Part shown: positions 36,814 to 64,000 of the stretch, one piece after another
Layout of the letters: every line of letters begins with the position of its first letter
How positions within the stretch are numbered: position 1 is the first letter of the stretch
NCBI GenBank assembly: GCA_019448385.1
Contig: JAGTXO010000002.1
Coordinates: 868,001 to 932,000, forward strand
DNA: 64,000 nt
Direction: 5' to 3'
Source of the DNA: Diacronema lutheri
Lineage: Eukaryota; Haptophyta; Pavlovophyceae; Pavlovales; Pavlovaceae
The notes under the pieces: generated by a model
Databases searched by the model: none
What the model saw: the letters and a program-made list of their open reading frames with translations, nothing else
What the model was told of the DNA's origin: nothing
Made by a program: the position numbers and the translations under genes

Positions 36814-36941
36814 GACGATGCGCGGCGCCTGCGGAGGACTGGTCCGTTGGCGCGCAAACCGTGGGCGAAAGGGCGCGAAGCCAACGGCCGTCCGCGCACG
36901 TTCAAACGCGCGCATACGGGTGGCTTCCTCCCACCTTCGGC

Positions 36942-37253: not shown

Positions 37254-37353
37254 GGCGCCTCAGAGCATGGCGCCCGCCCGCTCGAGCCGGACCTCCGCGC
37301 AGCCGGACTCGCCCCGCCCCGGGCTGCTCTGGCTGGGCGACGTCGTGCGCGCC

Positions 37354-37638
37354 TCAGAACGCCGCGCTCGCCACGCGCACGTAGCCCTCGTCCGGGTCCG
37401 GCTCGGGCGCCGCGTCGCGCACCGAGCGCGACGCGGCCTCGACGCCCGGCGTTTCGGCACGCGAGGCGACGGATGCCTCGTCCGGCCGGCCCCACGGCAG
37501 CTGCAGCTCGAGCTGGCGCTGGATGATGCGCGGCGTCGCCACGCGCCCGTGCTGCACCTCGCGACGTCGCGCGCGCACGTAGAGCACGATCGCCACCGAG
37601 CCGCTGAGGCCCATCATCGCGCCGAGCAGCACCGACAT
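37354..37638 (-). CDS. Small single-pass membrane protein
   Basis: 94 residues from the ATG at 37638. One N-terminal hydrophobic segment (MSVLLGAMMGLSGSVAIVLYV) is followed by an Arg-rich stop-transfer RARRREVQHGR. The cytosolic tail has IIQRQLELQLPWG and an acidic end (PEPDPDEGYVRVASAAF). The form resembles small assembly factors of mitochondrial respiratory complexes or signal-anchored proteins, but I do not recognise it. Divergent from the Pif1-like pseudogene, 190 bases between starts. Confidence 0.5.
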   Translation of the reverse strand: MSVLLGAMMGLSGSVAIVLYVRARRREVQHGRVATPRIIQRQLELQLPWGRPDEASVASRAETPGVEAASRSVRDAAPEPDPDEGYVRVASAAF

Positions 37639-37828
37639 TGTGGTCTCATTGTCTGCTTGGGCGCGAACGGAAAACGCGCGAAGGGTGGCGACGAAGATCG
37701 TTGGGTTGGGTTGGGCCACCGGCTCCCGAGGGTTGCTTGTGGCGCTCGACTGACCGTTGGCCCAGCTTTTTTTTTTCTCGAACCTACTGTGGAGCCGCCT
37801 GCAGCGTGATCTCCCGCGCAAAACGACC

Positions 37829-41740: not shown

Positions 41741-41749
41741 CGCGTGCAC

Positions 41750-42900: not shown

Positions 42901-43159
42901 CTGGGCTTAGCGTCACCGCCGTCGGCCGCATCGTCTGCGTGGCCGAGCTCGGAGCCCGACGCGCCGACCTTGCCGGCAGCCTGGCCGCGGGTGCGGCAGA
43001 TGGCAGCGGTGCCAACAGATGCGACGATCGGCATCGCGGAGACGGCTGCAGACATCTCTACGGCGGCGATCGGCCCAGCTGCGTGCGAGGCCCGCCAAGT
43101 TGTCTCCGTGACGCGCGCATTGCCAACAGCGGTGAGTGCGTCCTCGTCTCCGGCGGCCG

Positions 43160-43164
<5 letters not shown>

Positions 43165-43216
<52 letters not shown>

Positions 43217-43221
43217 ACACA
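43165..43221 (+). repeat. C homopolymer (38) followed by CA dinucleotide repeat
   Basis: Uninterrupted C run 43,165-43,202, then (CA)n to 43,221. Compound simple repeat. Confidence 0.9.
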
Positions 43222-43763
43222 ACTCTCCCTACCTTCTTCCTCCTTTCGCACCTCGCACGCGCACGCCGTCCGCTGTCCGCTGTCCGCGGCCCAAATTGCC
43301 TTGCGGAAGCCGAGCAGGCAGAGCCCTGCTTGGATGGCTCCAGCGCGCATCTTGTGGATGGCGACGCTGTGGGCGAGCACGGACGCTCAAATGTGACCAG
43401 TGGCGCGCACGTGCACGTGCGCTAACTGGACGTCGAGCGTGTGCGCCTTGTCCGCACGTGTGCACTCACGTGCGTCTGCGGCGATCTGCCCGGCGTAGTA
43501 GTCCGCGCGCGCGGGAGCCGCGTCGGCAGTAGGAGCAGGATAACGTACTTGCGCCTGACGAGGACGGCGAGAAGTGCGGCTTTTCGCTCGGGGTCTACCA
43601 TGCCGCCGAGGTTGGCGCTGGCGCGCGTGAGGCAGTCGGAGCGCGCTGGGCCCGGGTTGAAGGCCTCACCCCGGGGGACGGGAGGATTCAAGGCGCCGAG
43701 CCGCTGCGGGTGCGGCGGGAGGCCCCGGGCGGGTGTGCTAATGCGGCTCGATGGCCGCCTGCC

Positions 43764-43806
43764 GGGGGGGGGGGGGGGGGGGGGGGGGAGGGGGGGGGGG
43801 GGGGGG
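43764..43806 (+). repeat. G homopolymer (43 bases, one A)
   Basis: G run interrupted once by A at 43,789. Confidence 0.9.
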
Positions 43807-44208
43807 CGTTGGGCCGCCCGCGGAAACGGAGGTGAGCGTGTGGGAGCGGCGCGCGTCGGCGCGCGCGGCTGGCGTGCAGCACGGATAAGTCTTGTGTGGA
43901 CTTCGCGGGGCGGATCCCGGTGCAGGGATTGCCGACGCAGGCCGCGAGCGCGAGCAGGGCGGGGATGAAGACGGATGATGGGGTTGGGGCCAAGGCCGCC
44001 GCACCCGCAGCTATCACGGTGGCAGCGACCGCCACGGTCAGTGCGAGGCTCGCGTGGCCGCTGCGCGGGCAGCTCGCCCGCCAGGTCCAGGAGGGCCGGC
44101 CTGCGGCCTCAGTGCCCAGCGTTGGGCATGTCAGCGTCTGCGTCTGCGGGCCCGCCACTGCGATGGCGCATTGAGCCTGGCGCACCAAAACGCAATCGGT
44201 CCGCCGAT

Positions 44209-44250
<42 letters not shown>
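44209..44250 (+). repeat. G homopolymer (42 bases)
   Basis: Uninterrupted G run. Confidence 0.9.
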
Positions 44251-46151
44251 CGAGGCGTGCGCGGGGGCTTGGGGTGGGCTCCGGGTGCCGGCGCTGTGCC
44301 AGCGGCGGGCTTGGTTGACGCCGTCTCGCCGGGGCCCTTGCGCCTTGCGGCGCGAGCGTCGCGGAGGGGCGTCGGCTGCGCTGGCTCCGCGTCGGCGGTG
44401 GCGTGGGGCAGGCTCTTGTGGAGGGCGGAGCGCTCGCGCACGAGTCGGTTGCCAAGGCGGGCTGTCTGCGTGCCGTTGGGCTGCGCTTGGGCAGGTAGGA
44501 CCTGCGGCCTCGGGGGCGGGCGGGTTTTCGTGTTGGGCCAGGCGGCAACGCGCACCGGCCGTGTTCGCGGCCGGCAGGCGGACGTCCGCAGCGGGGCGGA
44601 GAATGCGGGTGAAGCGCTTGCACGGGCGCGGTTCGCACCTGGCGGCCAGGCGATCACGAACCGTTGGGTCGCCCGGCTGTTTGGTGGAGCCGAGGGCAGC
44701 AAGGATAGCGAGCTTGGCCGCCTCATCGGTGACGAGCGGCACTGTTGCCCAGCTCTGTACCTCGAAGCCCTGGATGTGCAGGCGTCGGGGAAGTTCCCGG
44801 CAGCGTCGCCTGCGTCCGTCGAGAGGCGGACCGAAGTCGCGCCCGTGCCCCCGTTGGCGACACCGAGCTCTCGCTCGTTCACACCGGCCCGCCGACGCGG
44901 GCGCGTGGTGCGCGCGCGTTGGGTGCGTGTCTGCCTCGAGCAGCGTGCCCAGTCGCAGTGTGGGCGCGTGTCCGTCTGCCTCAAAACGCCACGTGGAGGG
45001 GAAGGCGCGGGGCGGGCTCGCCGAGGAGGTGCCGCCGCTCGCTGCCACCCGGCGCGGGCTCGGGGCAGCCGTCTTCGGGTGCCGCGCTCTTCGCGCCATG
45101 CACGAACGTTCCGCCGCGCTCGCAGCGCGCGAGCGCACACACAGAGCGCGCGGCGACCCCGGTGGGGGCAGTGCGTCCCGGTGGCACTCGCGGGCGCGCG
45201 CCTGGCCTGGGCGCAGCTGGGCGCGTTGCCGCCCGCGCAGCGAGCCGCCCGCGCGCCTCGCCGCGCGCGCGCTTCGTCGCACGCGTGCGCCCTGCATGCA
45301 CGCGCACAGCGCGCGGCGGCTCGGCGCAGTGCAAGGCAGAGCGTGCTGCAACGGTTGCGAGGGCGCGCACGCGCGGCGCGGCGCGCCCCTGTGTGGTCGC
45401 CTGCGCGCGGCGCGTGGTCCGGACGCAGCTCGGTGGCGTGATGCCGTTCGTGCAACACAGTGCGCGTGAGAGCCGCACGTGCACACCTGCAGTGCAACGC
45501 GGCATTGCGCGCGTTGCGTGGGCGGAGCGCGGCTGGATGTGCTTGAGGTCGCGCAGCATGCCGCGCGCCGCGCGCTGTGCGGCGCAGCGAGTCGGCCATG
45601 CCCCTGGTCCTCGTCGCCGGGGGGGGGGGGGGTGGTGGTGGCAACCAGGATCCGCCAGCGCGTGGTGGGCGCCGTCCAACTCCCAGCCAGGATGCGCCCC
45701 GTTCTTCCCCGACACTCTCCGTCCAAACCCGCCGCCCAGCCTGCCGCCGCACCCGCCGCCAACGCCGCCGCGCACCCATCCGCCGAGCTCACCTCGCGCG
45801 CGCTCGCGCTCACGCTGCGCGACGAGGCTGCGCAGGCCGGCGCGCGGCCGTGCAGAGCAGCGCAGGCCGGCGCGCGGCCGCGCGCGCGCGCTCACGTTGC
45901 GGCCGCGCAGCGAGCTTTCGCCGCGTCGCAGCCCCTCCGAGCAGCCACGATGCACGCCCCCGGAGGACGTTGGCCGCGCTCGGAGGCCGCGCTCGGGCGC
46001 GCAAAGAGAGGCGGCGCGGGCAAACGAGTAGGCTCGGCGCGCTGGCGGGTCCTGGTTGTGGGAGAGCGGGGCATTCTCCAGGGCATCATGTAAATTCTCC
46101 CAAGTATCATCCGGGCCGCCATCCGGACACTGACGTGCCCACAGTCTGCAG

Positions 46152-49100
46152 ATGGAGGACTCCGTGAAGGACGCTTTGCCCGGCGGGCGGGGCGGCTCGG
46201 ACAGTTTCTCGCTGGCCCTCAGCACCATTCTGTCGCCGGGAGATACCCACCCCCACGTGGTCCCATCCACTTGCCTCATCGCCCTGCTGCGTTACGCGGA
46301 TTTCGGCACGAGCAGGGTTAGGGTGGGCGACACGGGGTGCTCGCAGCATGCGCTCAAGGTGGCGCTGCGCAACCTGCGCAAAGCATGCGCGGATGCGGAC
46401 CGGTTTGGGCAGGTGCTCGTGGTCGTGCTACCGCTCTGCCTCCGCGCGTCCAGCGGCCTCGTGCACTGGACGGCGGCGTACCTGCTCCTCGCGCCGCCCG
46501 CGCAGCGCGGCGCGCCGCCCGGCGCCGCGCTCGCCCTGCTCGCCGATTCGCGCACCTTGGGCAACGGCGAATCGGCGTACGCCACGGCGGCCGGCGTGCT
46601 CATCAAGAAGCTTGCGCAGCGCATCGGCAGAACAGCGCCGCCCATCGATGCCTTCAAGGCGCCCCCGCAGAGTGGGGCCGCGTGTTGCTTCGCCGCGGCA
46701 ACAGTCGCGGCCGAGGTCGTGGCGAGCGCATCGACGCTCTACGGCCGCCGCGCGAGTGTCCTTGTCGACATCAAGAAGGCTTTGGACGCGCGCCTCGCGC
46801 GCCTCACGACGGCCGCGTACGAGGAGACCCGCGCGCGCACGCTCCGCGCCGCCATCGGCGCTCTGCTCGGCGACCGCGCCAGGCGCTTCGGCCCGTTCAC
46901 CCGCGAGGCCGCGCGGCTCGCCGAGGCCGCGCGGCTCGCCGAGGCGTGCGATGCCAGTGTCGGCGGATCCGCGCCCGACGGGCTGCTGCAGGCCGTCGAG
47001 GCGGCGCTGCGCGCGCCCGACGACCGCATCGCACGCACGGCCGCGCTCGACGCGCTCACGGGCGCTGCAGGCCGCGCGCTGTCGACGGCGGCCAGGCCGC
47101 GCGGCGCGGCGGCGCCAAGGCCGCCGTCGCGAGCGCCACCGCCGCGTGCGCCGCAGCGGCGCGCCGCCTCGGCGTGGGGGCCCCGACCATTCAGCAGCCT
47201 CGGCGGGGGCGAGGGCGACGGGGACGATGGCGACGCCACCACCGCTGACGACGGGGAGGGCGCGGAGGACGGGGACGACGACCCCGCGGGCGCGGCGGCT
47301 GCGGCGGTGGCGACGGGCACGGCGGCGACGAGCGCGGTGGCGGCGGGCGCGGCGCCAACCTCGCCGGCGGCGGCGGACGGCGGTGGCTCGGCGCCGCTCG
47401 AACGCCGCTGCGTCTACACTGCGCCTGATGAGGGCGACGCGGACGCGCGCGTGTACGACGCCAAGGACCCCGAGCAGCTAAAAGCGGGCAGGGCGCGGCT
47501 ACGGGCGAACAGCGGGCGCGCGCCCGCCGTGGTCGACACGCTTTTCGCGCACGCGACGGGCACGATCGTCACGCGGCAGCGCACGGAGGGCGTGACCGGC
47601 GCGGGCATGCACCACCTCGCCGCCCCGACGCAGGGCGCGGGGTACGGTACCGTCGTGCGGGCCGAGCTGGGCGAGCCCGGCTTCGCGGGGACGACATGGC
47701 ACATGACGTCGGGCGTGGAGAACCAGCCGCGCGCGGTACGAGCGGCCGCGCGCGCGTACGCGCACGACGGCTGGGGCGGCGTGTACAATGCGCACGAGGA
47801 CTTTGCCGCCTTCGAGGGCTTGCCGCGGCTCGCCGCGCCCGAATCGCTCGCGGCCATCGCCGGCGGGTCGGCGGACGCGGTGTTCTGCTGGCGGTCCGGC
47901 CGGTCCGTCATCGGCGAGGTGACGACGGTTCACTTCAATGGCGACCGCGCCGCCGCCATCGACCACGCGCGGGCGCTGCGCGTCAGGCCCGATTGGCGCT
48001 CGCAGCCCAGGATCTACGAGGCGGCGTGCGGCGCGGAGGGCACGGTGCTGCTCGTGTGGGTCGTGCCCGACCGTCACAAGAACCCGCGGCTGGACTGGGC
48101 GCCGATTCTCGTCGTGATCCACCTGCCCGCCGACCCCGACTGGCTCGCGCGCGCCACGCCGGCGATCGCGAAGGCGCGGCGCGAGGTCGAGGACGGACGC
48201 GCGCGCGCGGAGGCGCGCGGCGTGCCGCAGCACCTCGCCTACACGCTGAGCCCACGCTTCCGAGGCACCGCGCCGCGCGGAGCCGCGCGCGTGCCGCCGC
48301 GCCTCGGCGCGAGCGACGCGCGCGAGGCGCGCGCGCTCGCGGCGCTCGAGCCGGCGCTCATGTTCGCGCCGGCCTGGCGGCGCGCGGTGCGCGCGGCGAG
48401 CCGCGCCCCCGGCAGTGGCGCCGCGGCCGTCGAGCGCGCGCTCGCGCGCCTGCACAACGCGCTCGAGCCCGATGACGAGAGCGCGCCCGAGTCGACGCGC
48501 GTCGCGCCGCTCGCCGCCGCGCTCGAGCAGTCGGCGGGCTGGCCGGCGGGCACGGCGCGCATGGCGGCAAGCGTGACCAAGGGCCCCGGCGTCGGAGATG
48601 GCGCAGGTGGCGACGAAGTGACCAAAGTGGAGGAAACGGCGAAGACGAGCGGCGACGGCTGCACCGGCACGCCTCCTCTGCGCCCGGCCGCGCGCGCGGC
48701 CGGCGCGGCGGACGACGGAGGGGCGGCGGTCGTGGCGGGCGTCGAGGGCGAGCGCGACGCACTCGCCAAGACGGGTGCCGGCGGCTGCGACGACGACGCT
48801 CGCGAGCCGCTGTCGGCCGGCAAGCCCGGCGCACTCGCCGCCGCGGCGACCGTCGGGGGTCTCGGCGAGCTCGTCGGCAGCCTATGCGCGTGGCTGGCGC
48901 GCGGCGCGGCTGGCGGCGCCATCGCGGCCATCTCCCCCGGGACGGCCGCGCGCGGAGCAAACGGCACGCCGCAGCGCGCCGAGCCGCCGGCCGCCGGCGA
49001 TCCCGTCGCTCCGCACGCGCGCGTCGCCGCTGCGGCGCCCTTGGCGGGCAGCGCGGCGGCGCCGTCGTCGGCCGCGCGCGACGCGCAGCGCGGCGTCGCG

Positions 49101-52100
49101 GGATTCGACGCGGCCGCGCACGCGCACGCGCGCGACGGCAGGCGGGCGGCACGGCGGATGCGCGAGCAGGAGGGGGCGGTGCACAGGGCCTTCCGCATGT
49201 CCCTCTGGCGCGACGCGACGTTTGTCGAGTTCGTTGAGAAGCTGCGCCCCGACGGCGGCGCGCAGCTGCTCGCGCGCGAGCCCACGCGGCGCGCGGCGGC
49301 GGTGCTGTGCGAGCTCGCGCGCGGCCGCGACGGCGCGAGCGGCGCGGCCGGGCTGCTGCACGAGATGAGAGCCGCCGATGCGCGCGCGCGCGAGGCCGCC
49401 AAAGCGGCGGAGGCAGCGCAGCTTGCGCACGGGACGCTGCGCATCGTGGCAACCGTGGCGCTGGGCGGTGCGGTCTTCGCCGGCATGTCAGCGCTGGTCG
49501 TTGCTTGCGCGGCGCGCACGGCGACCGGTGCGCTTTTTGGGGCCCGCCGCCCGCGGGCGGCCGCGCGCGGAGCCGACGACGCGCTCGGCACGCTGCAGCG
49601 CGCCAAGCCGCCGCCCGCCGACAAGGGCAAGCGCAGGCGCGCCAGAGCCAACGACGACCCCGTCGACGCGGCGCGCAAGGCCGTGGGCAAGGCGGAGGGC
49701 AACTGCCGCAAGGCAGCCCGCCGGCTGCACCTCGCTGCACTGGGCGAGGAGGAGGCGCAGCAGCGCGTGCTCGACGCCGAGGCGGCGGAGCAGCTGGCGC
49801 GCTCGCGCGAGCCGGCCGGCGGCTGGGTAGGCAGCGCGCGCGCGCGCGCGCGCGCGCGCCCCGCCGCGCGCGCGCCCGTCGATTGGCGTGCGCGCAGCGC
49901 AGAACGGCGCGCCAGCTCCGTCACCTGCGCGCCGCCGCGCCCGTGCCCCTCGCGCGCAGGGGCGCCCTGCGGACCTGCGGCTGCAACAGGCGCACTTTGG
50001 CATGCGCGAAGATGCCGACGCGGATGTGCGCCGCGCGCACGAGGCGCTGCGCCGGGCGAGACAGGGTGTGGCGTGCGCCAAGGCCAGCGTGCGGCAGATG
50101 GAGGCGGCGTTGCTCAACGCGACGCGCTGCGCCACCGCGGTGCTCGCGCCGCGTGGCGTGCCGGAGGGTGACGAGCAGGCCGCGGCGAGAGAGCAGGCGG
50201 CGCTGGACCGGGAGGCGCCGCCGGCCGCGCAACGCGCGGCGCCGACGGCGCGCTCGCCCTCGGAGCCGCCGTCCGAGTGGGGCCCGCCAGCGGTCGGCCG
50301 GCGCCCGACGCCGCGTGCACTGTCGCACGCCGCGGGTCGCGGGGACGACAACCCGTTTGCGCCGCTCGCAACCGTCAGCGGCGATTGGTCGCCCACGCCG
50401 AGCTCGCGCTCGCCGTCCTCGCCGCCGCGGCAGCCGCCGTCCGACCGCCGCAGCGCGCAGCGTCGCAGCGCGCGCGCGCGGCCGCCGAGGCCGACCGTTT
50501 CGCCCGAGGACGCGCTCGCAGCCGAGCGCCAGGCGCGCGCGCTGTCGGAGCAGGCGGAGCAGAGGCGCGCCAAAAAGGCCGCCGCCAAGGCCGCGCGCCG
50601 CGCCGCGCGCGCCGCCGACAAGCGGACGGCGCGCGTCGTCCACGCGTGCGTAAGCGCCGCCTTGCGGCGCGTCTGCACGAGCGTCGCCACGGGCACGCCG
50701 CTCGCCGTGCTCCGCGAGCGCGCCGAGGGGCCGCGCGCGCCGAAGCCCGCGCCCGCGCCGCCACGCCGCGCAGCGGACGGCGGCCGCGCGCTCCGCCACG
50801 CGCGCCGTGCGGCCGCCGCGGCGGCGGAGCGCGAGGCGGCGGTGGCGGCCGACGCCGACGAGCGGTTCGAGCGGCAGCCCTCCGCCGCCCGGTTCGACGG
50901 CGGCGATGGCGGCGGAGGCGGCCACGTCGAGGCGAGCGCGCGACCGCGCGCCGGCGAGGCCGGCGAGGCTGGCGCGCACGGCGCGCCTGGCGCAGCGGGG
51001 ACCCCGGCGGCGTCGCTCGCGTCGCGCAGCCCGTGTGATGCGCGCCGCACGGCACGCCTCCCGCACGCACGCGCCGCAGCCACCTGCGCACGCAACGGCG
51101 GCTGGGGTGGCAACGTCGGCGGCGACGTGTGCGGCGGTTGTTTCGGCGGCGGCGGCGTCCGTCGCGACGCCTGCGGCGGCGGCGACGCCACCTGCGGCTG
51201 CGGCGATGGCGGCGTCGGTGCTGGCGCTGGCGAGGCCCCTGCACACGGTGCGCCGGCGCGCGCGACGGCGTCGCGCTTGCTGCGCTTGCTCGGCGCGCCA
51301 CGCGCCGTGCTCGGTGCGATGGCGCACGCCGCGGCCGTGTTGGCGCGCGGCGTGGCCGCAGCCGTCGCTGGCGTGCGCGCCGCCGCGCGCGCCGTGCGGC
51401 GCGCGCGCCGCCGAGCGCCTCGCGCGCGCCGCACGGCTGCGCGGCGGGCTCGCGGCCCGCCGATGCGCGACGTCGACGGCGCCCTGCGGCCCTCGCCGTC
51501 CTGGTTGCGCACACGCCTCGTCTGCGGCCGGCGCCTCGCGCCTCTGCGCCGCGCGGGCGCGCGCCCGCCGCCCGCACACGCCGCGCCGAGTTCCCGCGCG
51601 CGCGCTGCGCAACCCGACAGCGACGCGCCGGCGTGCGCGCCGCGGCGCTCGGCGCCTGTCGGTGCGCCGCCGCGCGCGCGTGGCCTGCGCGCGGCGCGCG
51701 CACGGCGCTTCCTCGACGTCGCCGGCCGCGCGGCGCGGAGCGCGCGCCTCGGCGCGCGCATCACGCGCCAGCGCACGCCGGGTTCGCCATCGGAGCCCTG
51801 CACGGCCGAGAGCGGCGACGGCGCGGGCGCCGGCGGCGTCGGCGCGGCGGCGCCTGGCGCGGCGACGATGCGCGCCACCGGCGCGCGCGCAGCGCGCGCT
51901 GCGGCGGCGGCGGTCGGTGGCGCCTCGCGTCTCGCGCGCCGCGCGATGGCAAGCGCCGCCGCCGCTGCCACCTCCATCGCCGGCGCTGCCGCCTCCACCG
52001 TCGCCGCCGCCGCCGTTGCCATCGGCGCGGCCGTCACGTCACCGGCGTTCGCCGCGGCGCGCGGCATGGCGGCCGCATGCGTCGCTGCCTGCGCCCGCCC

Positions 52101-54396
52101 CACCGCCGCGCAGGCGGCCGCGTCGCGCGCGCTCGGCGCGCTCTTCGTGCTCGTCGACGCGGCCGACGCGGCGGGCGACAGCGACGCCGCGCTCGGCGCG
52201 CTCGCGGCCGCGGTCGACGCGACGGAGCTGCGCCCGCCGCCGGCCTTTTGGCGCGCGGGCCGCGCCGCGGCGTACGCACCGCGTCCGCCGCCCCTCGACT
52301 CGGCGCGGCCGCGCTACAACCGGCGCGCGCGCGCACCTAGCCCTCCCGTCGCGGCCGCGCGGCGCAATCTCGCGCGCGCGGTGCGCGAGCTCACGCGCGC
52401 CGCGCGCGCTGAGCGCGAGCGCGCGCCGGCGCCGCGCGGCGCGCGCGGCGGCGTGCTCCACGCGCTGCGCGCGTCGCTCCCCGTGCACGCGCGTGCCGCG
52501 CTCGGCACGGACGCGGAGCTGCGCGCGGACATCGCCGCGTTCGCGCGCGCGCGCCGCGAGCTGCACAGCCTCACCGACGCCGAGGTGGCGGCGCTCGCGC
52601 GCCCGGACGGGCCGCCGCTGCCCGTGCGGCTCGCGTGCACGGCGGTCGCGCGCGCGCGCGGCGTGACCGTGCTGCTCGACATCGTGCCGCGCGGCGGCGG
52701 CGCGCCCGAGCGGCTCGTGTGCCGCGCCCGTCGCCGCGGCGCCGCCACGCGCACGCCACGGCCGACAGCCGCCGTTATCGCGCGCGCGCCTTGCATAGCG
52801 GCGCGCGTTGGCCACACTGAGCCGGCGCGCGCGTGCGCGGGCGGATCGATCGGGGTCGCGCGCCTCCGTTCAGCGCGCCGCCGCTCTTGGCGTGGGGCGC
52901 GGCTCGACGTGCACACCCGCGAGCGGCTGGCCACACCGGTGCCAGGCCACGTCGTGGCCTGCGCCGCCGCCTCGGCCATCGGCGCGTGCGTCGCTCGCGC
53001 GCGGCTTGGGCTTGCACGGCTGGCGCGCGCGTGGCCCTGCGCCTCCGCTCCACTGGCCGCTGCTGCTGTCGCCTTCGCGCCTGCCGCCGACGGTGTTTTC
53101 TGCGCCCCGCTGGGCGCTCCTGCATCCGCCTTCGCGCCTGCCGCCGACGGTGTTTTCCCCGCCGCACTAGCCGCTGCTGCATCCGCCTTCGCGCCTGCCG
53201 CCGATTTTCCCGCCCCACTAGTTGCTCCTGCATTCGCCTCCGCGCCTGCCACCGACGGCGTTTTCCCCGCCCCACTAGCCGCTGCCGCTGCCGCGTCCGC
53301 GCCTGCCGCCGCGGGCGCGTCTTCCGCCCCACCAGCCATCGCCGCCGCGCCCGCCGCCAACGCGCGCACCGCCAACGTGCCCGTTGCCAACGAGGCTACC
53401 GCCACCGAACCAGCCGCCCTTGAGCTTCCCCTCCAACCCGCCAACTCGGCGCTGCTTGCGTGGGCGGGCGACGCGGCTGCGCGCCGGCTGGCCGCCGCCG
53501 CTGCGAGCGCCGGCCTCCCGCAGGCAGAGGTGGAGCGCATCGCCAGCGGCGACATGCTCGCCTCAACCGTCGACGCGTGCTGCGAGGTCGTGCTGCGCGT
53601 GCACGGGCAGGCCGGCGGCGGGCATGTCTGCCACGTGCCGCTCGCCGCGCAACCCGCGGTGTTTCAGGACGACGCCGAGCGCGCCGCGCTGCTGCACCGC
53701 CTGCGCAGCGAGGCGACAACGCAGGCTGTCATCGGCGTGTGGAGCCCGTCGGACGAGCGCGGCGGCGCGGGCGGTGACGACGGCGCGCAGCTCGCCTCCG
53801 GCCATTTCACCGCGTTGCGCCTTGTGCGCGTCGCGCGCGCGGGCGAGCATCGCTACGACGCGGTGCTCGTCGACACGCTCGCGTCGCCCTGCAGGCAGGC
53901 GCTCATGCTCGCCAAGGCGATAACTGCCACGCTGCACGCGGCGGGTCTCGACATTTCGCGCGTGCGCCGCGCGCTGCTGCTCAACGAGGCGGCGCAGCGT
54001 GGCGCGACGTGCGGCCTCGCGATAGTGGGCGCGCTCAACGACGCGCTCGCCGCGGCGGGCTGCTCGTCCGCGCCGCGCACGTTCAGCGTGGCGGACATGT
54101 ACGCTGTCGGCGAGCGCCTCCGCGTCGCGCTGACCGGCGCGGCCAGCGATCGTGCGCCGGGCGGCGTCTGCGCGGTCACGAGCGCGGTGCGTGGCGGGGG
54201 CAGCCCCGATCGCGCCGAAACGCCGCCGCAGACGCGCGGCGCCAAGGCCGCCGCTGGCGTCACCGCCGCCGCCACCGCCGCCGCCACGCCGCCGCCGCCC
54301 GCGCTGGGCGCCGCCGCCGCCGCCACCGCCGCCGCCGCCGCTGCTGCCGCCGCCGTGGCCGCGCCGCCACCGCCGCCACCGCCGCCGCCGGCCGGC

Positions 54397-54476
<80 letters not shown>

Positions 54477-57400
54477 GCGCACGTTCTTGAAGCTCGCGCC
54501 CAGGGCGCGCGCGGCCGCCTCGGCGCGTGAGGCGTTGCGCGCCGCGTGTGCGCGCGCGGACGCGGCGGCGTCGTCACACGCGTCGGCGCCGCACGCGCCC
54601 GCCGGTGCGCGCCGCCGGCGGCGCGCGGGCGCAGGCGAGCTGGCGCTCGCGGCTGCGCGCGCGCTCGCCTCGACGGAGCACGGCGATTTGACGGACGACG
54701 CGCTCGAGGCCGCCGTCGAGCAGGAGCTGGGCGACGAGCGCGGCCAACTGCTGCTGTGCACGCGGGGCGCAGCGGCGCAAAGGCCCGCGCTTTGCCGGCT
54801 CCTGAAGCACGCGTGCGCGTCGGCGCGCCCCGCGAAGCGCGCGCAATTCACGGTGTTCGTCGTGCGCGCGGCCACGCGCGGCGAGCGGGGGGGCGCCGCC
54901 GCGAGGCGCGTGGACTCGGTGGTCGAGCTGTCGTGCGCGCTGCACGAGAAGGCGGGCGCGCTCGGCGGCCTCCAGCGCGTCTGTGTGCGTGGCTTTGCCC
55001 TCGAGCGCCGCCGGACACTCGACGCTGGCGCCGAGGCCGGCGCGTCCGCCATCGGCCAGGACGAGCAGGTCGAGGCAGAGGCGGGCGAGGCGTGCGTCGC
55101 CGGCGTGACGATGGCCAAGCAGCTGCGTCAGTTTGCCGAGCAAGCTGCCCGCGACGACGTGCTCTTCCACGTCGCCGTGTCCGAGGCCGACGCCCACGCC
55201 CGGCTGGCGCGCGTTGCGGGTGACGATGTCGGCGCGTACAGCGTCGTGCTCGCAGTCGCCGGGCTCGTCTGGCTGGCCAAGGCCGACGAGGTTGCGCCGG
55301 CGGCCGCCCAGCCCGCCGCCGTGCCGCCCGCCGCCCCGCCTGCTGCCGCCACGTCCGCCGACGCCGAGCGCGACGCCTCGCCTTCCGACCGCCTGCGCGC
55401 GCTGACGCTCGCCGTGCGAGTCGCGCTCGCGCGCGGCGTGCTGCGCCACCTCCTCGCCGACGCGTCGCCGGGCGCGTCCGCGACCGCTGGCGGTAGTTGC
55501 GCGACGCCCGTCGAGGCGGCCGCGTCCGACGCCGCGCCGCCCGCCACGGGCGTCGTGACGAGTGGCGTTGCGGCGGGCGCTGTGGCGGCCGCACCGGCTG
55601 CTGCGGGCGGTGCGATGGCGGGTGCATCGCCCATCACGCGGCCGGCGAAGCGCGCGCGGCGCACGCTCACCGCCGCTCCAGCCGCCTCGGCCGTTGCGGC
55701 CGCTGGAGGCGCACGCGCGGGCGCACGCGGCGCGGCCGGCGCGCCTCGCGCGCGCGCCGCGCGCGCGCCGGCCGAGTACGTCTGGCTTGCCATCGCGCGC
55801 CGGATGCTGGCGGCGCGACACGCGGCGGCCGCGGGCGGCGACTTTGTCGCGTCGTGCGTCGCCGCGATGCAGGCCGAGTACGGCGACGGCTGTGCCGTCG
55901 TCGTCGGCGACGCGCCTGATGACGCCTTGGTCGAGGCTGCGGCGGCGGCGCTGCTCGAGGGCAAGCACGCGGCGGTGAGCCTCGGCTGCGTCGACCGGCC
56001 GGCGGTGCTCGTCGTGCAGCGCGCCGTGGACGCGCCCACGTCGCGCGTGCACGGGTGGTGCGCGCACGCGGCGGGCGCCGCCGAGTTTGACGAGGGCGCC
56101 GCGCGCGACGTGTTCAACGCGATCGTCGAGCGCGCGTGGGCGCTGCGTCCGGACCCGGCCGACGGCAGCCCGCCGCCCACGCGCACGTGGGAGGTCGAGC
56201 AAATCGCTGACGACGCGCCCGACCAGGCGGGCGTGGCCGCGCTGCGCGTGCTCTACGCGCTCGTCGCGGCGCACGGCCGCTACCGCTCGGCCGCCGCGCT
56301 CTTTGGCGCGATCGCGCAGCTGCACGCGCCCGACGCCGCCGGCGCGCGCGCGGAGGTCGTCGCGGCGGCGTGCGCGGTGCCGCCCGGCGCGCGGCCGGGC
56401 GCCGCGCCGGCGGCCGCGCGGGACGACGCGAGGGAGCGCGCATGGGAGGGCGCTCAGATCGCCGCGCTCGCCGTCGGCGCGGACGCTGCGCGCAGGCGTG
56501 TCGCGCCCGTGCGCGCGCTCGTCGACGCGCTCGGCACGCCGCCGACCTCGGCGATCACGGGCGGGCCGGCGGTCCGGCTCGCGGGCGCGGGCGACGGCGG
56601 CCACGGTGCACGGTGGGTGGGCGGGCAGGCGGCGACGCCCGCCGAGCAGCTGCCGAGGGAGCTGCTGCGCGCCTACCACGAGGCGGTGCTGTGCGTCACG
56701 CCCGGCAGCCTCCAGCTCGGCCCGGCGGCGCTCGACGCGGTCACGCGGCCGCGCGAAAACGACACGCTGGAAGGCCTCCTCGCGCGCGTCAGCTGGCAGT
56801 GCGGCGCGAGGGCGAGCACGTGCGCCATGCTCGCCACGTTTTCCGAGCAGGCGGGCACCGGCTCGCGCGTCGCGCTCAAGGCCCTCCGCACGAGCTCCGA
56901 CCTGGCCGGGCTGACGGCGGCTGCGGTCGGGCAGCAGGCGCCGCAGACGCCGCCGCCGCCGCTTCTCGTGATGCTCGGCCGCTGCCCCAGCCCGCTCGTC
57001 GGCGGCGGCCTCTTCCCGCCCGACCGCGCGACGGGCGAGCCGGCGGTGCACGCGGCGACGTCCGAGCTCGCCGTCGAGCTGCTGCGCGACGCGCGCGCGC
57101 TGGCCGGCACGGACGGGCGGCTCGTCGTGCTGTGCCTCGAGGCGTCCAACCCGCTCTGGTTCTGCCCCAAGGTGCGCGAGCTCGAGCTGCCGCGGACGCG
57201 GTCGGACGGCGTGCGCGCGTCCGGCTGCACCTGCCCTGCGACGTGCAGCGATGCGCGCGGCGCGGCGGGTGGCGCTGCCCGCGGCGCATCGACGCGGCCG
57301 GCGGCGCGCGCGATCAACAAGGCGGTGCTCGACCACTTCGTCGCGCTTTTCGGCCGCGAGGGCTTCGCGACCTTTGAGTTTGCGGGCGGCGGCGAGGCGA

Positions 57401-60400
57401 GCTGGCTGTGCGACAGCGCGGCCGGCACGACGACCGTCGCGGCGTGCGCGTCGCTGCCGCCGCGCATGGGCGATGGGCAGCTGGCCATCCGGCGGCACAC
57501 GCTCGGCACGGGCGCCGACGCGCCGGCGCACGCCGTCGTCTCGCTCCGCGTCGCGCACGTGAGCCACGCCATCCGCCGCGCGGCGGACGACGGCGGCGCG
57601 CGCGCCGAGCGGATGGCGCGCGCCGCGCGCGCGTTCTGCGATGTGGCGGCCGCGCTGCGCGTCGACGCGATCCTGGCGGAGGTGCCCGAGGACCGCCCGA
57701 CGGGCACGCCCTTCCTTGGCGGGCTGCTCAAATGTTGGGACAAACGCAACGGGAGCTGGACGGCGCCAGCCACGCTCGCGCTCGGAGACGTGCGCGAGGT
57801 GGCCAAGCGGACGGCCGACGCAGCGGCCGGCCGAGCGGACGAGGTCCCTGCGGCTGGCCGTCCGCAGGTCGCGGCGCGCGCGTGCGCTGGCGCGATTGGC
57901 GGCGGCGCGGGCGCGGCGGGCGCCTCGGACGCTGCGCCGCGTGCACTGGCGGGCGCGTCGGGTGCGCGCACGGACGGCGGCCCTGCCGACGCACCGCGCC
58001 AGCTGGAGAGCCGCTACGGCGAGGCGAGCAAGCTCGACCTACCCCAAGATTCCACTACGGGCCGCGTCCTCGACGCTCGCGAGGCCCAGGACCGCGCGCG
58101 CGTGCCTGCTGCGCCCGACGGCACAGCGCTGCGCCGCGTGCTCGACGCCGTCGGCGCGGGCGCGCCCGCGCAGCGCAGCCCGCGCTGGCACGACGAGCGA
58201 TGGGAGGAGGTCACGGGCAGCAAGGTTGGCGACGTCGTGAACGACAACGCCGGCGTCGCGCACGAGACGCTCACCGACGAGTACGTGCACCGGCGGCGGC
58301 GCGAGGTGCGGACCAAGGCGACGACCGCGGGCATCCTCGGCGAGGCCGTCGCGCTGCGCAAGCTGGCGGCCGCGTACGGCATCACCGTCGTGTGCAACCT
58401 GCCGATGGTGCGTGCGGACCCGCACGACAAGAGCGCGCCGTTCGCCTTCTCGCCGGACGGGCTCGCCATCCTCCCCGAAAACAACGAGCAGGTCCTCGTC
58501 GAGGTGAAGACGCTCACCAAGGCGGGCGCCACGGCGCACGAGGACGGGCCGCCGCAGCCGCACCGCGATCAGCTGCAGCTCGGCATGCACGTCCTCGGCG
58601 TGAGCAAAGCGCTCTACGTGCAGTACCTCAGGCACGAGGACCGGATCGTCGTGCACGTCGTGACGCGCGGCGCCGGCTGGCTTGCATTCGCGCAGCCGAG
58701 GGTGCAGGCCTTCTGGGCGCGCGTCGTCGAGCGGCGCGCGCGGCTCGAGCGCGCGCGCGCCGACCACCCGGCTGCGAGCCGGCGGCACCGGCGGCAGCAG
58801 ACGCCGGCCGGGCCGCCGCTCGTGCTCGCGCTGGACGGGCGCATCCCCGCCGCGCGCGCCGCCGCGCTGCACGCCGTCGCGCACGGCACCGCGAGCGCGG
58901 CGGCGGTGACGGCGGCGGCGGCGACGGGCGACGCGACGGCGTTGCAAGACGCGATCGCGGCGCTGCGCGCGCCCGTCGGCAATGCGGCGATCGCCAGCGC
59001 AGCGCGTGCGGAGGGCGCGGCCGTCGAGCGGGCGATCGCGTACCTCGGGCAGCCGGCGGGCGACGCCGCCGCCCGCGGCACGGCCGAGGCGGCCGAGGAG
59101 GAGAGGACGGTCGACGCCGACATCTGCGCGTTGCTGCACCAGCTCGGCGCGAGCGTGGCGCACGTGCACGTCGAGGACGCGGATTGCGTCACGCGTGAGC
59201 ACTGGGGCGAGGCGGTGCTCGCTGCAGCGGACGACCCGTCGAGCGCCCCCGCCATTTCGAGCGTCATCGTCGCGCACATCGTGCGCCTCGCCGGCTTTGG
59301 CGTCGAGCTCCCGCAGTCGATTCGCGTCGCCCCCAGCACGGCCGACTGGCACGAGGGCTGGCTCGACGTGCAGTGCGTGCTGCTGCGCACGCGCCGGCGC
59401 GGGCGGCGCGACGACGACTTTGTGGCCGTCGTCAGGCGCGGTGGGCGCTGGTTTGCGTGCGAGCCCGGCCGCGCGCGGCGGCTGCAGTGGCGGTCGGTCC
59501 TACGCCGCGCGCGCGGCGGCGTCGACGGGACCGGCGAGGAGGCGTTCGCGATCGTCTACGTGCGGCGCGGCGACGCGGCCGGCGACGCGGCTGGCGACGC
59601 GCAGGCCGCACGGGCGCGCGGCGGGCGCGCGCGCAGGCGCACGCGCGGCGGCACGCGCAAGCGCAAGCGCGGCGCCTCCGCCGGGCTCGAGGCGGCCGCG
59701 CCCGCCGGCGCGCCGGCTGCCGCGCCCGCCGGCGCGCCGGCGGGCGCTGCTCACCGCCCGCCCGCCATGCGCGCCACGGTCGCCGCGCGCACCACGCGCT
59801 CTGTGACCGACGCGCTGCACTCGGCGCCTGCCGCCACGGTTGCACCTGTCTTCGACTGGCGCGCCGGCCGCCCGCCCCCCGCCGCTCGAGCCCGCCACCC
59901 GCGGCCGCGTGGGCGCGCGCCACCGGGCAAGGTCTGGGACAGCGTCTCGGGTGCGTGGGCGGACATGCCGACTGGTGCTGCCGTCGCCGCCGCGCCGCCG
60001 CCGCTGCCGCCCGCCGCCGCGCCGCCGCCCACCGCCGCGCCGCCGCCCGCCGCCGCGCCGCCGCCCGCCGTCGCGCCGCCGCCCGCCGCCGCGCCGCCGC
60101 CGCCGCCGCCACCGGCGGCGCTCAACCGCTGGCAGCACGTCGGCGCGGGCGGCAGCGCGGCGGGCCGGCGGCTCGCGGCCATCGCACGGCGGCAGCGCGG
60201 CGTGCGCGCGCCGCCGCCCACCGCGCGCTTCCTCGCCACGCTGCCGCCACCGCCACGCGACGGCCTCGCGCGCACGAGCAAGCAGGCGCGCGCGAGGCGC
60301 AACGCGGACGGACGGCCGGCGCACGCGCGCGCGGCCAACGCGCGCGCCTTCTACCGCGGCGTGGAGCTCGGCGTGCACGCGACGCGCGCCATCGTCGACG

Positions 60401-63400
60401 CGCGCCACGCCGACCTGCCGCAGGCCGTCTTCGTGGCGGAGGCGCGGGCGATCGTCGCGCGCTCCGCCGGCGGCGGCGCGCTGCTCGCGCCGGACGACGT
60501 GCGCGACCTGTGCGACGCGCAGACGGACGCCGATCGCGCTGCGATCTGGGCGTCGGTGGGCGCGCACGAGGCGACGCGCATCTTCGCGCTCGTCACGCGC
60601 AACGCGAGCTTGGCGGGCGCGGCGCTGCTCGTGCTGCACACGCCGGCGGGCGCGCCGGCGCGCGCGCTCGGGCTCGTGGCGACGCGCTCGCGCGCGCCGT
60701 CGACGGGCGCGCCGCGCGACGCGCACAGGGCGCTGGTGCAGCGGTTGGACGTGCTGATGGACGCGATCGCCGCGGCGCGAGGCGCGTCGCCGCTCGAGCT
60801 CGAACACGCGCTCGCGCCCGAGCCGCAGAGCGCGTGCAACGCGCGTGCGGCCGCGCTGCTCTGCCTGCAGGCCGTCGCGGACGCGAGCGGCCGTCCCGCC
60901 GCTGAGGACGCGCTGGCCGCGCTCGACGACGCGCGCGGCATCGACCGGCACTGCCACGCCGTCCGGCAGCAGATCGAGGCGAAGCTCGCGTGGCGGCGCG
61001 CCGACGGCGCCGTCGGCGTTGACGGCGCCGACGGCGCGCCCGCGCTCGCGCCTGCCGCCGCACCGCCGGCGTGCGCGCCGGCGCACGCTGCCGGCGAGGC
61101 GGCGGTCGACCAGGCGATCGTCACGCGGGTGCGCGACGCGCTGCGCGCGTGGGCGACGACTGGCACCGCGCCCAGCGCGGCGGTGCTCGACGACGCCTGC
61201 GCCGCGTACACGGCGCGCGCACGCGCGCGCAAGGACGCGCGCACGGCGCTGGGCCCGACGCGCGCGGCCGAGCTGCTCGCCGCGGCCGCGCGCGGCGGAG
61301 CCGACGGGGCGGATGCCGCGCGCGCGCTGCTCGGCGGCACGCCGCGCCTGCTCGTCGTGCTCCTCTGCGTGCCCGTCGCCGCGCCGTCCGGCGAGCCGCC
61401 GCGCCCGGTCGGGCTGCTCGTCGCCGACCGGCCGACGGACGACTCGCGCCCGGCCGCGCTCGTGCGCTACGACTTTGCGCCGCTCGACGCGGACGTGGCC
61501 GTCGCGGTCGGCGCGCATGCCGTCGCGCTGGCCAGTGCGATCTGGCCGCTGCTCGCGGCCGAGGGGGAGCCGCGGCCATCGCCCGTCGTGCGCTCGCAGC
61601 CGCGCGGCGGCGACGATGGCGCGTGTGCGCTCGCAACGTTCGCGTGCCTCGACGCGCTGATGACCGCCAGCGTCGGCGCGCACGGCCTCGCGGGCGGCGC
61701 GGGCATGCTGCCCGCGCTGGTCGCGCGAGGCGCCGCGGCCGCCCAGCGCGAGCGGCAGCTGCGCGCGGCCGCCGAGAGGCTGGGCGGCACGGTCGCTGGG
61801 TGGCCGGACACGGGCGCGAGCGCGGCGGGCGCGAGCGTCGACGAGGAGGCGCGCACGTACGAGGTCGAGGCGGTCGTCGACGAGCGCCGCAAGGCGGGCA
61901 AGAAGGTGACGTTCCAGTTCCGGATCAGGTGGCGGGGCTACGACGAGAGCGCCGACACGTGGGAGCCTGAGGCCAACGTGAGCAGCGACCTCGTCGCCCA
62001 GTTCCGCAAGACGCGCGACGAGGAGAAGCGGCGCGCGGGCGGATCGGGCAGCGGCAGCGGCGGCGCGGGCGCGGCGTCGGCATTGGCGTCGGCGCCGCTT
62101 CGCGCGCACGGCGAGTCGGGCGCCGCGGGCAAGCGCGCCGCGGCGGGTGCCGCCGCGAGCGCGCGCGACGCCGCGGGCGCGCGCGCGCCGAGCGTTCCCC
62201 GCGCGCGCGGCGTCGAGCGCGCGCGCGTGGACGAGCCCGCTGCGCCGAGCGCGCGCGCCGCCGGCGGCGCGACGGCGCGCACGCGCGGCAGCGTGCTCCC
62301 GGGCTTCGTGGTCAAGCGCTCGACGCTCAACGCGGGGCCGCAGGCGGTGACGGCGCAGCCCGGTGCGCGGAAGGAGCTGCGGCGCATCGCGGCGGCCGTG
62401 CACAGGCTCACGACACAGGCGTACCGCGTCATCAACAAGGTGGTGCGCGACGAGGCTGCGGTGGCGAGCGCGCAGGCCGTCGGCGCGGCGTCGGGCGGCC
62501 CGTCGACCAGCGTGCACACGTCGACCACGATGGACAAGGGATCCGTCCGTGCGATCTTCTCGGCCATCGGCTGGCACAAGGACGAGAGCACGTACGGTGC
62601 AGCGCCGCGAGGCAAGCCCGCCGAGCAAGCCGCCGCGCAGACCAAGGCGGCGACGGCGCGCGCCGTCGGCGAGATGGCCGAGGGCGTCCAGCCCGTCTGC
62701 GCGGTGGGCCTCACGGAGATCCTCGAGGCGGAGGCGACGCAGGTGTCCACCGCGTGCCTGATGCACCCATCGCGCGTCGTGAACGGGCTGCTCCGCGACG
62801 TCGTCCGCGCGGCAGTCGAGCGCGACGAGGCGCTCGTCGCGCTGCCCGAGATGCAGCGAAACGCGCGCGTGCGCGAGCTGTGCGAGCGGCTGCTGCGCGG
62901 CGACGTGGAGGGCGCGCGCGTCGGCTGCCCCGCCGCGCTCGACCGCCACCTGCCCGACATGGTCCTCCACAAGATCGACTACAAGTGCACGCCCACGAAA
63001 AGGTGGAACTACGACCGGCACACGACGCGCTACTTCCTCGTGCAGATCCGCACCCTGCAGCACGTGGCCGAGGGGCAGGCGCTGCTCTGCCGGCTCGCGC
63101 ACATCCACACGCAGCTGACCGGACGGCCGCCGCGGTACAATGTGGCGCCGCTGCGCACGCACAATGTGCGCGCGAGGCGTGGCTGCCGCTGCCGCCGCCG
63201 AGCGCCCAAGCGCGCGCGCCGCCGCCGTGCGCGCCGCCCCGCGGCCAGGTTGGTCACGCGCCCGCGCGCTCGCGCGCCGCGCGCTGCGCGCAGGTGCCGC
63301 GCAACGTGCGCCTCGCCGCGAGCGCCATCTGGGTGACGCTTTCGGATGACGAGCGCAAGGAGCTGCGCGCGCGGCTCAAGGCGCTGGACCTGCGCGACCA

Positions 63401-64000
63401 CGATGGCGAGCCGATCAAGTGGACAGGCACAAACGGCAACACCCCGCCGATGTCGGACGTGCGCGTCAGGTACGCGGTCTTTGCGACGCGCTTCGACATC
63501 TCCAACCGCGTCTTCGACTACGCCGGGCGCGAGCGGCCGCCGGCCGATCTGCCGTGGCACGCGCGGCGCTCGTGGGTTGGCCTCGCGCCGCTGCCGCGCG
63601 TGCCGCTCCCGGGCCGGCAGCCCGTCAAGTCGGTGGTGACAGATGGCGTCGCCGTGCACGCCGTCGGGACCGTCCTCGTGCCGAAGGCGCAGGCGCCGGC
63701 CGGCGGCTCGGGCGTCCTGCACCGCTGGCGCCGGCCGGACGGGCGCATCGCCGTCGCGCTCGGCTCCGAGCTGCGGCGGGCGATCGACGTCGAGGCGGCG
63801 GTCGTCGTCGCGGCCGACCCGAACATGGGCAACATCACCACCTACTCTGCGCACGTCGGGCGGGCGGCCGTCTGGCGGCAGTTCACGCAGCGCGCGCGCG
63901 CGCGCGCCGCGGGCTTTGCGCGCGAGACGGCCAAGACCAACGCGGCGCGGCGGCGCGTGCGCACCGACGGGCGCGGCGAGGAGTTCAGCGTGGAGGCGGA
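46152..64000 (+). CDS. Giant polyprotein-like gene: C48-like proteases, YqaJ exonuclease, chromodomain, Fanzor-like C-terminus (open at right edge)
   Basis: Exons 46152-49826, 49960-63165 and 63294-beyond 64000; both introns (133 and 128 bases) are phase 0 with CTGG|GTAGGC...CGCAG|GGG and CAAT|GTGCGC...CGCAG|GTG. At least 5,862 codons without a stop. Regions by residue: 1-200 Ulp1/C48-like protease (H105, D132, Q173, C179); 420-760 unassigned alpha/beta domain (YGTVVRAELGEPGFAGT, GEVTTVHFNGD); 1150-1270 coiled coil; 1400-2250 Ala/Arg-rich; 2420-2600 second protease-like domain (H2507, D2530, Q2571, C2576); 3960-4150 YqaJ-type nuclease; 5190-5248 chromodomain; 5410-5863+ Fanzor-like region. 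Upstream of 46152 a CTGCAG precedes the ATG, so a further 5' exon is possible. Best read as an element-encoded or virus-derived protein; one continuous product is inferred, not proven. Confidence 0.55.
46446..46740 (+). other. Ulp1/C48-like cysteine protease module 1 (domain within giant gene)
   Basis: SSGLVHWTAAYLLL supplies H105, ALLADSRTL supplies D132, and PPQSGAACCFAAATVAAEV supplies Q173 and C179. The His-Asp-Gln-x5-Cys order and the Q-to-C spacing fit the SUMO-protease/adenain fold. Predicted role: self-processing of the polyprotein or removal of ubiquitin-like modifiers. Confidence 0.5.
53070..53330 (+). repeat. About four copies of a ~57-bp tandem repeat in the giant gene
   Basis: Units encode variants of SAFAPAADGVFPAPLAAA; copies have diverged by substitutions and a short deletion. 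In-frame, so it lengthens the protein linker before protease module 2. Confidence 0.8.
53460..54135 (+). other. Ulp1/C48-like cysteine protease module 2 (domain within giant gene)
   Basis: SGHFTALRLVRV (H2507), YDAVLVDTLASP (D2530) and NEAAQRGATCGLAIVGAL (Q2571, C2576) follow the same His-Asp-Gln-Cys order as module 1. All expected catalytic residues are present. Confidence 0.5.
54397..54476 (+). repeat. GCC trinucleotide repeat encoding polyalanine
   Basis: Near-pure (GCC)n of about 25 units inside the giant gene reading frame, giving a long alanine tract. Prone to length change. Confidence 0.9.
58165..58740 (+). other. YqaJ / lambda-exonuclease-type nuclease domain (within giant gene)
   Basis: PD-(D/E)xK nuclease of the YqaJ viral-recombinase family, which in phages and large DNA viruses resects DNA ends for single-strand-annealing recombination. 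SPRWHDERWEEVTGSKVGDVV supplies the W..R....T-G-S entry helix; GILGEAVALRKLAAAYG gives the first acidic residue; FAFSPDGLAIL the catalytic Asp; QVLVEVKTL the E-x-K; HRDQLQLGMHVLGVSKALYVQY the conserved Gln helix. All core residues are present. Confidence 0.78.
60001..60115 (+). repeat. Proline/alanine tandem repeat in giant gene
   Basis: Repeating ~21-base unit (GCGCCGCCGCCCGCCGCC core) encoding AAPPPAAAPPPAVAPPP-type sequence; a linker. Confidence 0.8.
61852..62028 (+). other. Chromodomain (within giant gene)
   Basis: TYEVEAVVDERRKAGKKVTF, then QFRIRWRGYDESADTWEP and EANVSSDLVAQFRK, is a canonical chromodomain. The aromatic cage is complete: Y in YEVE, W in IRWRGY and W in DTWEP. Such domains read methylated histone H3 tails and in chromoviruses steer integration to heterochromatin. 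Confidence 0.9.
63294..64000 (+). other. Fanzor/TnpB-like (RuvC-fold) C-terminal region, incomplete
   Basis: Exon 3 reads VVTDGVAVHAVGTV (TDG at about 63,639-63,647) and, 58 residues later, AAVVVAADPNMGNITTYSA (GAC of DPN at 63,816). The hydrophobic strand followed by D-P-x-x-x-N-x-x-T fits the RuvC-I active-site strand of Fanzor/TnpB nucleases, and a T-D-G strand at about this distance upstream is a feature I associate with eukaryotic Fanzors. RuvC-II, the zinc finger and RuvC-III would lie past the window edge, so the call is provisional. Confidence 0.42.

Follow-up and report, generated by a model that had tools for sequence, protein, structure and literature searches.

A 64,000-nucleotide stretch of the genome of the haptophyte Diacronema lutheri (contig JAGTXO010000002.1, positions 868,001 to 932,000, forward strand; C69:868001-932000 in our contig numbering), hereafter the window, carries a giant transposable element that runs past its right edge and in whose right part a predicted gene of 6,201 codons places a Fanzor-type nuclease behind a chromodomain. 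Transposons carrying a Fanzor were already known; what appears to be new is the fusion of chromodomain and Fanzor in a gene of this size, within a 31-kb element that has about 200 recent copies. The block at 34945-65424 in window coordinates, which is the span of the window copy, recurs at C71:151845-182855, and a full-length element measures about 31.0 kb. When the 43,492,796 bases of the assembly (103 contigs) were searched with the exact end sequences, 190 left and 210 right ends were found, against none for the reversed control; these counts are lower bounds, some left ends having been missed by the exact 28-mer. Probes allowing up to two mismatches located 230 Fanzor sites and 205 PIF1 sites, a probe for the start of the giant gene allowing one mismatch located 167 sites, and a 4-kb piece of the element gave at least 37 full-length matches at 100% (rounded), 37 of 1,148 candidates having been scored. 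Identity among the compared copies was 97-100%. Junctions with host sequence were examined at 12 left and 11 right ends, the twelfth right end (on C3) being the end of its contig, and apart from the three left flanks described below the flanks appear unrelated between copies. Dispersed copies, common ends, and unrelated flanks identify these approximately 200 full or partial sequences as a transposable element, of which the giant gene occupies the right part, and the gene is not a host gene. A preliminary description of the window, which had proposed a giant transposon, was correct on this point, and single-copy synteny is excluded.

Three of the left flanks (one on C3 and two on C4; L043, L045, and L054) have a repeat of about 50 bp in common and differ just before the TATATA motif; the repeat is possibly a promoter repeat or the end of another element.

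Pairing of 95 left and 98 right listed ends on contigs C1-C45 joined 70 left ends to a right end and left 25 left and 30 right ends unpaired; three left ends on C27 have one right end in common, and 2 of the 70 pairs are not real. The pairs fall into length classes of 30.4-31.1 kb (33 pairs), 29.1-29.4 kb (9), 26.0-26.9 kb (7), and 21.4-22.2 kb (13), with 8 others. The content of each class was read from exact probes, counted among the matches listed (the first 100 places, all exact). In the 30.4-31.1-kb class, the Fanzor probe was present in 31 of 33 copies and the PIF1 and giant-gene-start probes in all 33. The corresponding figures for Fanzor, PIF1, and giant-gene start were 2/9, 0/9, and 9/9 in the 29.1-29.4-kb class, 7/7, 5/7, and 2/7 in the 26.0-26.9-kb class, and 7/8, 4/8, and 4/8 in the remaining pairs. 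The recurrent 21.4-22.2-kb class keeps both ends and the Fanzor probe (12/13), with neither PIF1 (0/13) nor the giant-gene start (0/13). Since all listed matches are exact, probe misses may be base-changed copies; in the part examined of one 29.1-kb copy, the Fanzor frame is open and a base change lies within the probe. Among the first 95 left ends listed, 68 belong to paired copies, whose combined length of 1.91 Mb is 4.4% of the genome; extrapolated to the whole family, the share may be roughly a tenth. The genome paper gives 22.9% repeats, and the word stem "transpos" is absent from its main text (PMC8379373).

The giant gene and its domains are listed here with the element that holds them.

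34945..64000, with the right end at window coordinate 65424 (L002:3424), about 1.4 kb beyond the window; plus strand; giant transposable element, defined by shared ends
46152..49826; plus strand; giant gene exon 1 (frame, third-position GC, and splice model)
49827..49959; plus strand; predicted intron 1, GT-AG, 133 bp (exact frame join)
49960..63165; plus strand; giant gene exon 2 (frame, third-position GC, and splice model)
58162..58737; plus strand; YqaJ/lambda-exonuclease domain with an SPDG...EVK motif (phrog_434, 2.3e-15)
61858..62010; plus strand; chromodomain (PF00385, 7.5e-12), aromatic Y/W/Y aligned to HP1 (1kna)
62182..63165; plus strand; putative N-terminal half of the Fanzor module, placed by its position between chromodomain and RuvC part
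63166..63293; plus strand; predicted intron 2, GT-AG, 128 bp (exact frame join), with small length changes between copies
63294..64000, on to the stop at 65018; plus strand; giant gene exon 3, RuvC/zinc-finger half of the Fanzor (PF07282, 1.7e-6)

According to this model, the gene runs on the plus strand from an ATG at 46152 to a stop 1.0 kb past the right edge of the window, with no internal stop after splicing. Its coding track was built from open frames at 46134-50171, 49831-63336, and 61971-65018. Third-position guanine-plus-cytosine (GC) content follows a single coding track with phase shifts near 49.9 kb and 63.2 kb, and GT-AG introns are predicted at both shifts, where they rejoin the frames exactly. 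In addition, the database relative P0006, as predicted by its source, starts at the residue that corresponds to the first of exon 3, as would be expected if an intron at this boundary were conserved. We consider it unlikely that the region holds separate neighbouring genes instead, with a continuous frame produced by base composition and with Fanzor, chromodomain, and YqaJ belonging to different proteins. Long chance frames are common at the local GC content of about 79%, where an antisense frame of 1,291 amino acids is also open, and frame length alone is therefore weaker evidence than it appears. The exonic length differences between the window and C71 copies are 9, 24, 18, and 29+4 bases. 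The changes of 29 and 4 are separated by 10 bases and sum to 33; if they are one event, every difference keeps the frame, and if not, three of five do. The first three sit in tandem repeats whose units measure 3, 24, and 18 bases, and because such units keep the frame without selection, this evidence is weakened as well. Outside the exons, the C71 copy differs by 26, 14, 1, and 2 bases, none of them a multiple of three and two of them in G runs. Against separate genes, however, stand the two phase changes, each with its precise GT-AG intron, and a stop-free run of 4,501 codons in the window copy and 4,518 in the C71 copy. The giant gene, proposed as a single gene with two introns in the preliminary description, is well supported by sequence, with a continuous track, exact joins, and 6,201 codons, whereas the arguments from length and frame keeping are weaker than they seem. 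BLAST comparison of the giant protein with itself, cut into twelve segments, revealed no tandem homology (E<=1), and the start of the gene returned no relatives as a protein-search query.

The order of modules first proposed for this protein, with YqaJ followed by the chromodomain and a RuvC/Fanzor-like end, is correct, and each module was recovered by profiles. Self-processing, resection, targeting, and cutting as the combined action of one protein, which the preliminary description also proposed, would be a hypothesis. The chromodomain combines its profile match with the Y/W/Y residues aligned to HP1, which we take to be those of the aromatic cage. The YqaJ segment pairs the match to the PHROG RecE-like profile with a PD...EVK nuclease motif; it also matches NCBIfam TIGR03033 at 1.8e-6, under the family cut-off, and the Pfam model at 0.031 (whole open reading frame [ORF]) and 0.0017 (segment), both under the cut-off in the window copy. 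Of 150 places in the genome scored with the Pfam YqaJ model, a single one, on C71, attained E<=0.001, and there the match exceeds the cut-off. At the C terminus of the giant protein, the PF07282 match is over its cut-off. We aligned the window copy with one copy of the 29.1-kb class (97%) and with P0006 (46-50%), and the RuvC triad D175/E357/D417 (A2 numbering) and the zinc-finger cysteines C364, C378, C404, and C407 are invariant in the three sequences, the first cysteine pair being spaced C-x13-C. The relocated glutamate, E357, lies six residues ahead of the zinc-finger cysteines (first C364), and the module therefore has the D-E-D triad with E before the zinc finger as well as the four-cysteine zinc finger (TNB domain) of Fanzors. 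NCBIfam guided_TnpB scored 0.022, far under its cut-off, and a PDB profile search returned Cas12f at 0.014, a weak match because an unrelated earthworm enzyme scores 0.079; the Fanzor part had no match among PHROGs. RuvC-I reads DPN in the window copy and DTG in P0006, and the DPG that is found there "near exclusively" in Fanzors (PMC10711439) is missing; we therefore use the label Fanzor-type, for the relocated E, rather than strict DPG Fanzor. The DPN fits the residues D383 and N385 used by SpuFz1 (PMC10432273).

We favor, with a probability of roughly 0.5, a giant Fanzor element that moves by helicase-dependent copying, with the chromodomain-tethered Fanzor as helper. Such an element would move neither as a DDE element nor as a retro-element and would leave no long target duplication, resembling Helitrons and IS91 in outcome. 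Its endonuclease, unrecognised by profiles, would most likely be a part of the giant protein. With a guide RNA read from the element's right end and the adjoining host DNA, and with the TATATA of the left flank serving as target-adjacent motif, the right-end Fanzor would cut the empty donor site and favor re-copying. The chromodomain would tether the giant protein to methylated-histone chromatin, and YqaJ may resect or process ends. As to the target, 99 left ends on contigs C1-C47 were checked, and TATATAN stands directly 5′ of the element in 88 and not in 11, whereas TATATA occurs 4 times in 141 kb outside the element. Among the matches listed, the N was C in 55, G in 42, T in 2, and A in 1 of 100 copies, and the three length classes checked (8, 7, and 11 copies) each include both C and G, so that N belongs to the target site and not to the element. 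The two flanks of a copy share at most 5-8 bases in a row in 10 of 11 two-ended copies and 12 in one, compared with at most 8 bases in 121 shuffled flank pairs, a comparison that covers long target duplications, since anything under about 8 bp is within chance length. The copy with the 12-bp common string (C9:2907808-2938843) also has an extra TATAT at its left junction, as if the target had been copied with slippage.

Several observations weigh against this reading. Besides the missing DPG and the chance length of short flank strings, the left junction of the window copy itself has no TATATA. Hairpin folding of the terminal DNA is weak (z -1.98 at the left end, -0.41 at the right), RNA folding at the right end is no better than in shuffles (z -0.91 and -1.14), and Rfam gave no match in the window or at the right end of the element. 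A search for right ends joined to left ends within 15 bases, as a circular or tandem intermediate would have them, found none. The differences of the C71 copy are near neutral (28 synonymous, 72 not, 0 stops; expected 22.9, 76, and 1.1). Pfam scans covered 40 ORFs of 34.9-46.3 kb (E<=1 or E<=0.1) together with the giant-gene frames and segments, and the 40 ORFs yielded no family of transposases, integrases, reverse transcriptases, or capsid proteins. Helitron_like_N was not found in the element; it has one match in the genome (C63:35738-36019, 8.3e-23), and as 14 control genomes gave no positive, the sensitivity behind this negative was not gauged. Finally, the giant protein contains four HUH-type strings, none of them in a recognised Rep context.

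A Helitron2-like rolling-circle transposon that has captured a Fanzor and other domains and whose Rep is too divergent for profiles is an explanation that we regard as possible but doubtful. The element does have the PIF1-type helicase of Helitrons, a target-specific 5′ junction, and the flank pattern described above. Moreover, Fanzor1 is known in Chlamydomonas Helitron2, which inserts after a fixed tetranucleotide and makes either no duplication or variable ones of 7-19 bp (PMC3627910). Right ends also slightly outnumber left ends, an excess that is not solid, as the search patterns differ and left ends were missed. On the other hand, the HUH Rep of Helitrons was not recovered, TC...CTRR ends were not found at the examined junctions, no exact inverted match of 7 bases or more exists between the 73 bases of the left end and the last 150 bases, and the right hairpin is not significant. 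One further structure lies just inside the left end:

34984..35001; no strand; perfect 18-bp palindrome (the element has 51 palindromes of at least 14 bases, overlaps included)

Palindromes being common in the GC-rich element, it is weak evidence of function.

RNA-guided homing would dispense with a transposase altogether: the chromodomain-Fanzor-YqaJ protein would break TATATA-flanked sites, repair would copy the element, and PIF1 would drive synthesis. Nuclease, exonuclease, and helicase are indeed together in one element, the Fanzor probe is retained in nearly all short-class copies that lack the other two probes, and the strict 5′ motif resembles a target-adjacent motif such as the CATA used by SpuFz1 (PMC10432273). 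However, the flanks differ among copies, whereas homing of the classical kind depends on homology on either side of the site, and neither the right-end folding nor Rfam points to a guide RNA; we judge this explanation quite unlikely. A version with the Fanzor as the engine itself, in which a transposase-free, RNA-guided element would rely on the chromodomain-tethered Fanzor, YqaJ, and PIF1 to open TATATA (promoter-like) sites and to copy 31 kb, appears very unlikely to us. The element might also be a passenger moved in trans by an enzyme encoded elsewhere (the Helitron-like Rep of C63 or a host retroelement), with the giant gene as persistence cargo. The scanned ORFs hold no recognisable transposase, and the C63 match is a possible source of Rep, but full-length copies form the largest class (33 of 70) and all have the PIF1 and giant-gene-start probes, which would be unexpected for a large passive passenger and makes this origin improbable.

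Size range and YqaJ/PIF1 content are also compatible with viruses, and the preliminary description had suggested a virus-derived element. An endogenous virus, polinton-like or derived from a giant virus, that has lost its capsid genes is nevertheless hardly credible, because no integrase was seen in the scanned ORFs, no capsid, packaging ATPase, or protein-primed polymerase was found in these ORFs or in the giant-gene frames and segments, and four viral-contig scans, which reach mainly close relatives, returned no relative. A prokaryotic genome scan likewise gave no relatives of the element. The same Pfam scans found no tyrosine recombinase of the Starship or Crypton type, although divergent forms could escape them.

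Compared with the CRe-1/2/3 Helitron2 elements of Chlamydomonas (PMC3627910), the giant Fanzor element is alike in combining a Fanzor in a eukaryotic mobile element with a specific 5′ sequence and with duplications that are often absent and sometimes variable. It differs in its 31-kb length, in a Fanzor that follows a chromodomain within a gene of 6,201 codons, in the use of TATATA rather than TTTT, in the lack of a detectable Helitron Rep, and in that asymmetric inverted repeats were not found by exact 7-mers. SpuFz1 and the other biochemically tested Fanzors (PMC10432273) have in common with it the RuvC D, the relocated E before the zinc finger, the final D, and the D-x-N arrangement, whereas here DPG is absent, the zinc finger starts with C-x13-C and not CxxC, there is an N-terminal fusion, and folding and Rfam gave no sign of a guide RNA. 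IS200/IS605 elements with TnpB also insert 3′ of a short motif without a long duplication and carry the nuclease gene at the right end; here, no Y1 TnpA was found, and the element is eukaryotic, 31 kb long, and contains introns. The authors of PMC10711439 state that to their knowledge there is no evidence for IS200/605 in eukaryotes. Other giant transposons of eukaryotes, Starships among them, are similar in size and in carrying several genes, and the present element differs in that a tyrosine recombinase was not found and about 200 near-identical copies exist. Among the papers searched on Fanzors, YqaJ, giant transposable elements, and the Diacronema genome, we found no description of this element; PMC6338049, from the Fanzor/chromodomain literature, treats retrotransposons. 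With about 200 recent, near-identical insertions, mapped ends, and a sharp insertion motif, the family is a natural system in which the deleted class hints at the parts that mobility can do without. The position of the Fanzor behind a chromodomain suggests built-in steering of an RNA-guided nuclease on chromatin.

Nineteen other copies were compared with the window over 56.5-63.3 kb in the frame of exon 2, and 66 sites differ, of which 21 are synonymous, 45 are not, and none is a stop (expected 16.2, 48.9, and 0.9); the 20 loci, one being the window itself, are the best-scoring copies, and divergence is accordingly underestimated. Part of the 29.1-kb copy showed 11 synonymous and 16 other changes with 0 stops (expected 6.0, 20.5, and 0.5). 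Two of the 20 loci carry an exonic insertion of 1 base, and two other such changes lie within intron 2. These comparisons indicate a recent amplification burst within which selection is weak or not visible.

Two SUMO-protease-like (C48-like) domains had also been assigned to the giant protein. Both correspond to motifs recognised by eye:

46464..46688; plus strand; C48-like motif 1 (H...D...Q...C), without profile support
53803..54012; plus strand; C48-like motif 2, without profile support

The assignment was not upheld, as Pfam C48 models gave no match to the giant-protein segments at E<=10. An identity as Peptidase C48 (Ulp1) is not supported: neither the segment-wise Pfam search, nor a PDB search, nor the one structure model provided usable evidence; the model, of the second motif, had a predicted local distance difference test score of 41, too poor for use. 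The C48 regular expression was composed after viewing both motifs, and its shuffle rate of 0.008 is no test.

Left of the giant gene, the element contains further predicted genes.

36113..36658; minus strand; probable coding exon of a small gene (third-position GC 0.93), no Pfam family
37832..39000; plus strand; first part of the helicase gene, limits approximate, with an N-terminal region followed by the PIF1 Walker A region (PIF1, 1.7e-15)
38956..39405; plus strand; PIF1 helicase core, in the next ORF (PIF1, 1e-24)
39724..39858; plus strand; Pif1 2B domain (PF21530, 1.5e-12)
41856..42758; plus strand; weak ubiquitin-hydrolase (USP)-like ORF (PF00443, 4.2e-5; 23.7 bits, cut-off 23.9)

The PIF1 helicase is spread over three ORFs at 38.8-39.9 kb. 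Its N-terminal region has a relative, P0008, at 53% and presumably resembles virus-type single-stranded DNA-binding proteins. Runs of 38-64 bases consisting almost entirely of G or of C lie at 23431-23494, 43165-43202, 43764-43806, and 44210-44250 of the window, and two of the runs inside the element vary in length between copies.

In at least eight cases, seven at a right end and one at a left end of the element, a contig starts or stops no more than a few bases away, namely at the starts of C1, C5, C6, C10, C12, and C32 and the ends of C3 and C8, and the family probably broke the assembly. Telomeric insertion, considered for contigs ending at the element's last base, was rejected, as C32 starts at a left end and breaks in long repeats suffice.

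Near the window copy, an ORF that by eye is Myb-like (two-repeat) starts at window coordinate 65559 (L002:3559), 135 bp right of the element and on the same strand, and the element may sit in its promoter. On the left, a desaturase-like ORF, also named by eye (33622-35028, plus strand), runs into the left end of the element and seemingly has no continuation in the right flank, so that the flanks of the window copy look rearranged. Farther left, a long ORF on the minus strand (17513-22201) with a zinc knuckle (5.7e-10) and weak DWNN and RING matches resembles an RBBP6/Mpe1-type protein. Lastly, about 200 bp at 9397-9627 are repeated, inverted and at 90% identity, beside the C71 copy of the element (C71:150439-150759) and belong to another repeat family.

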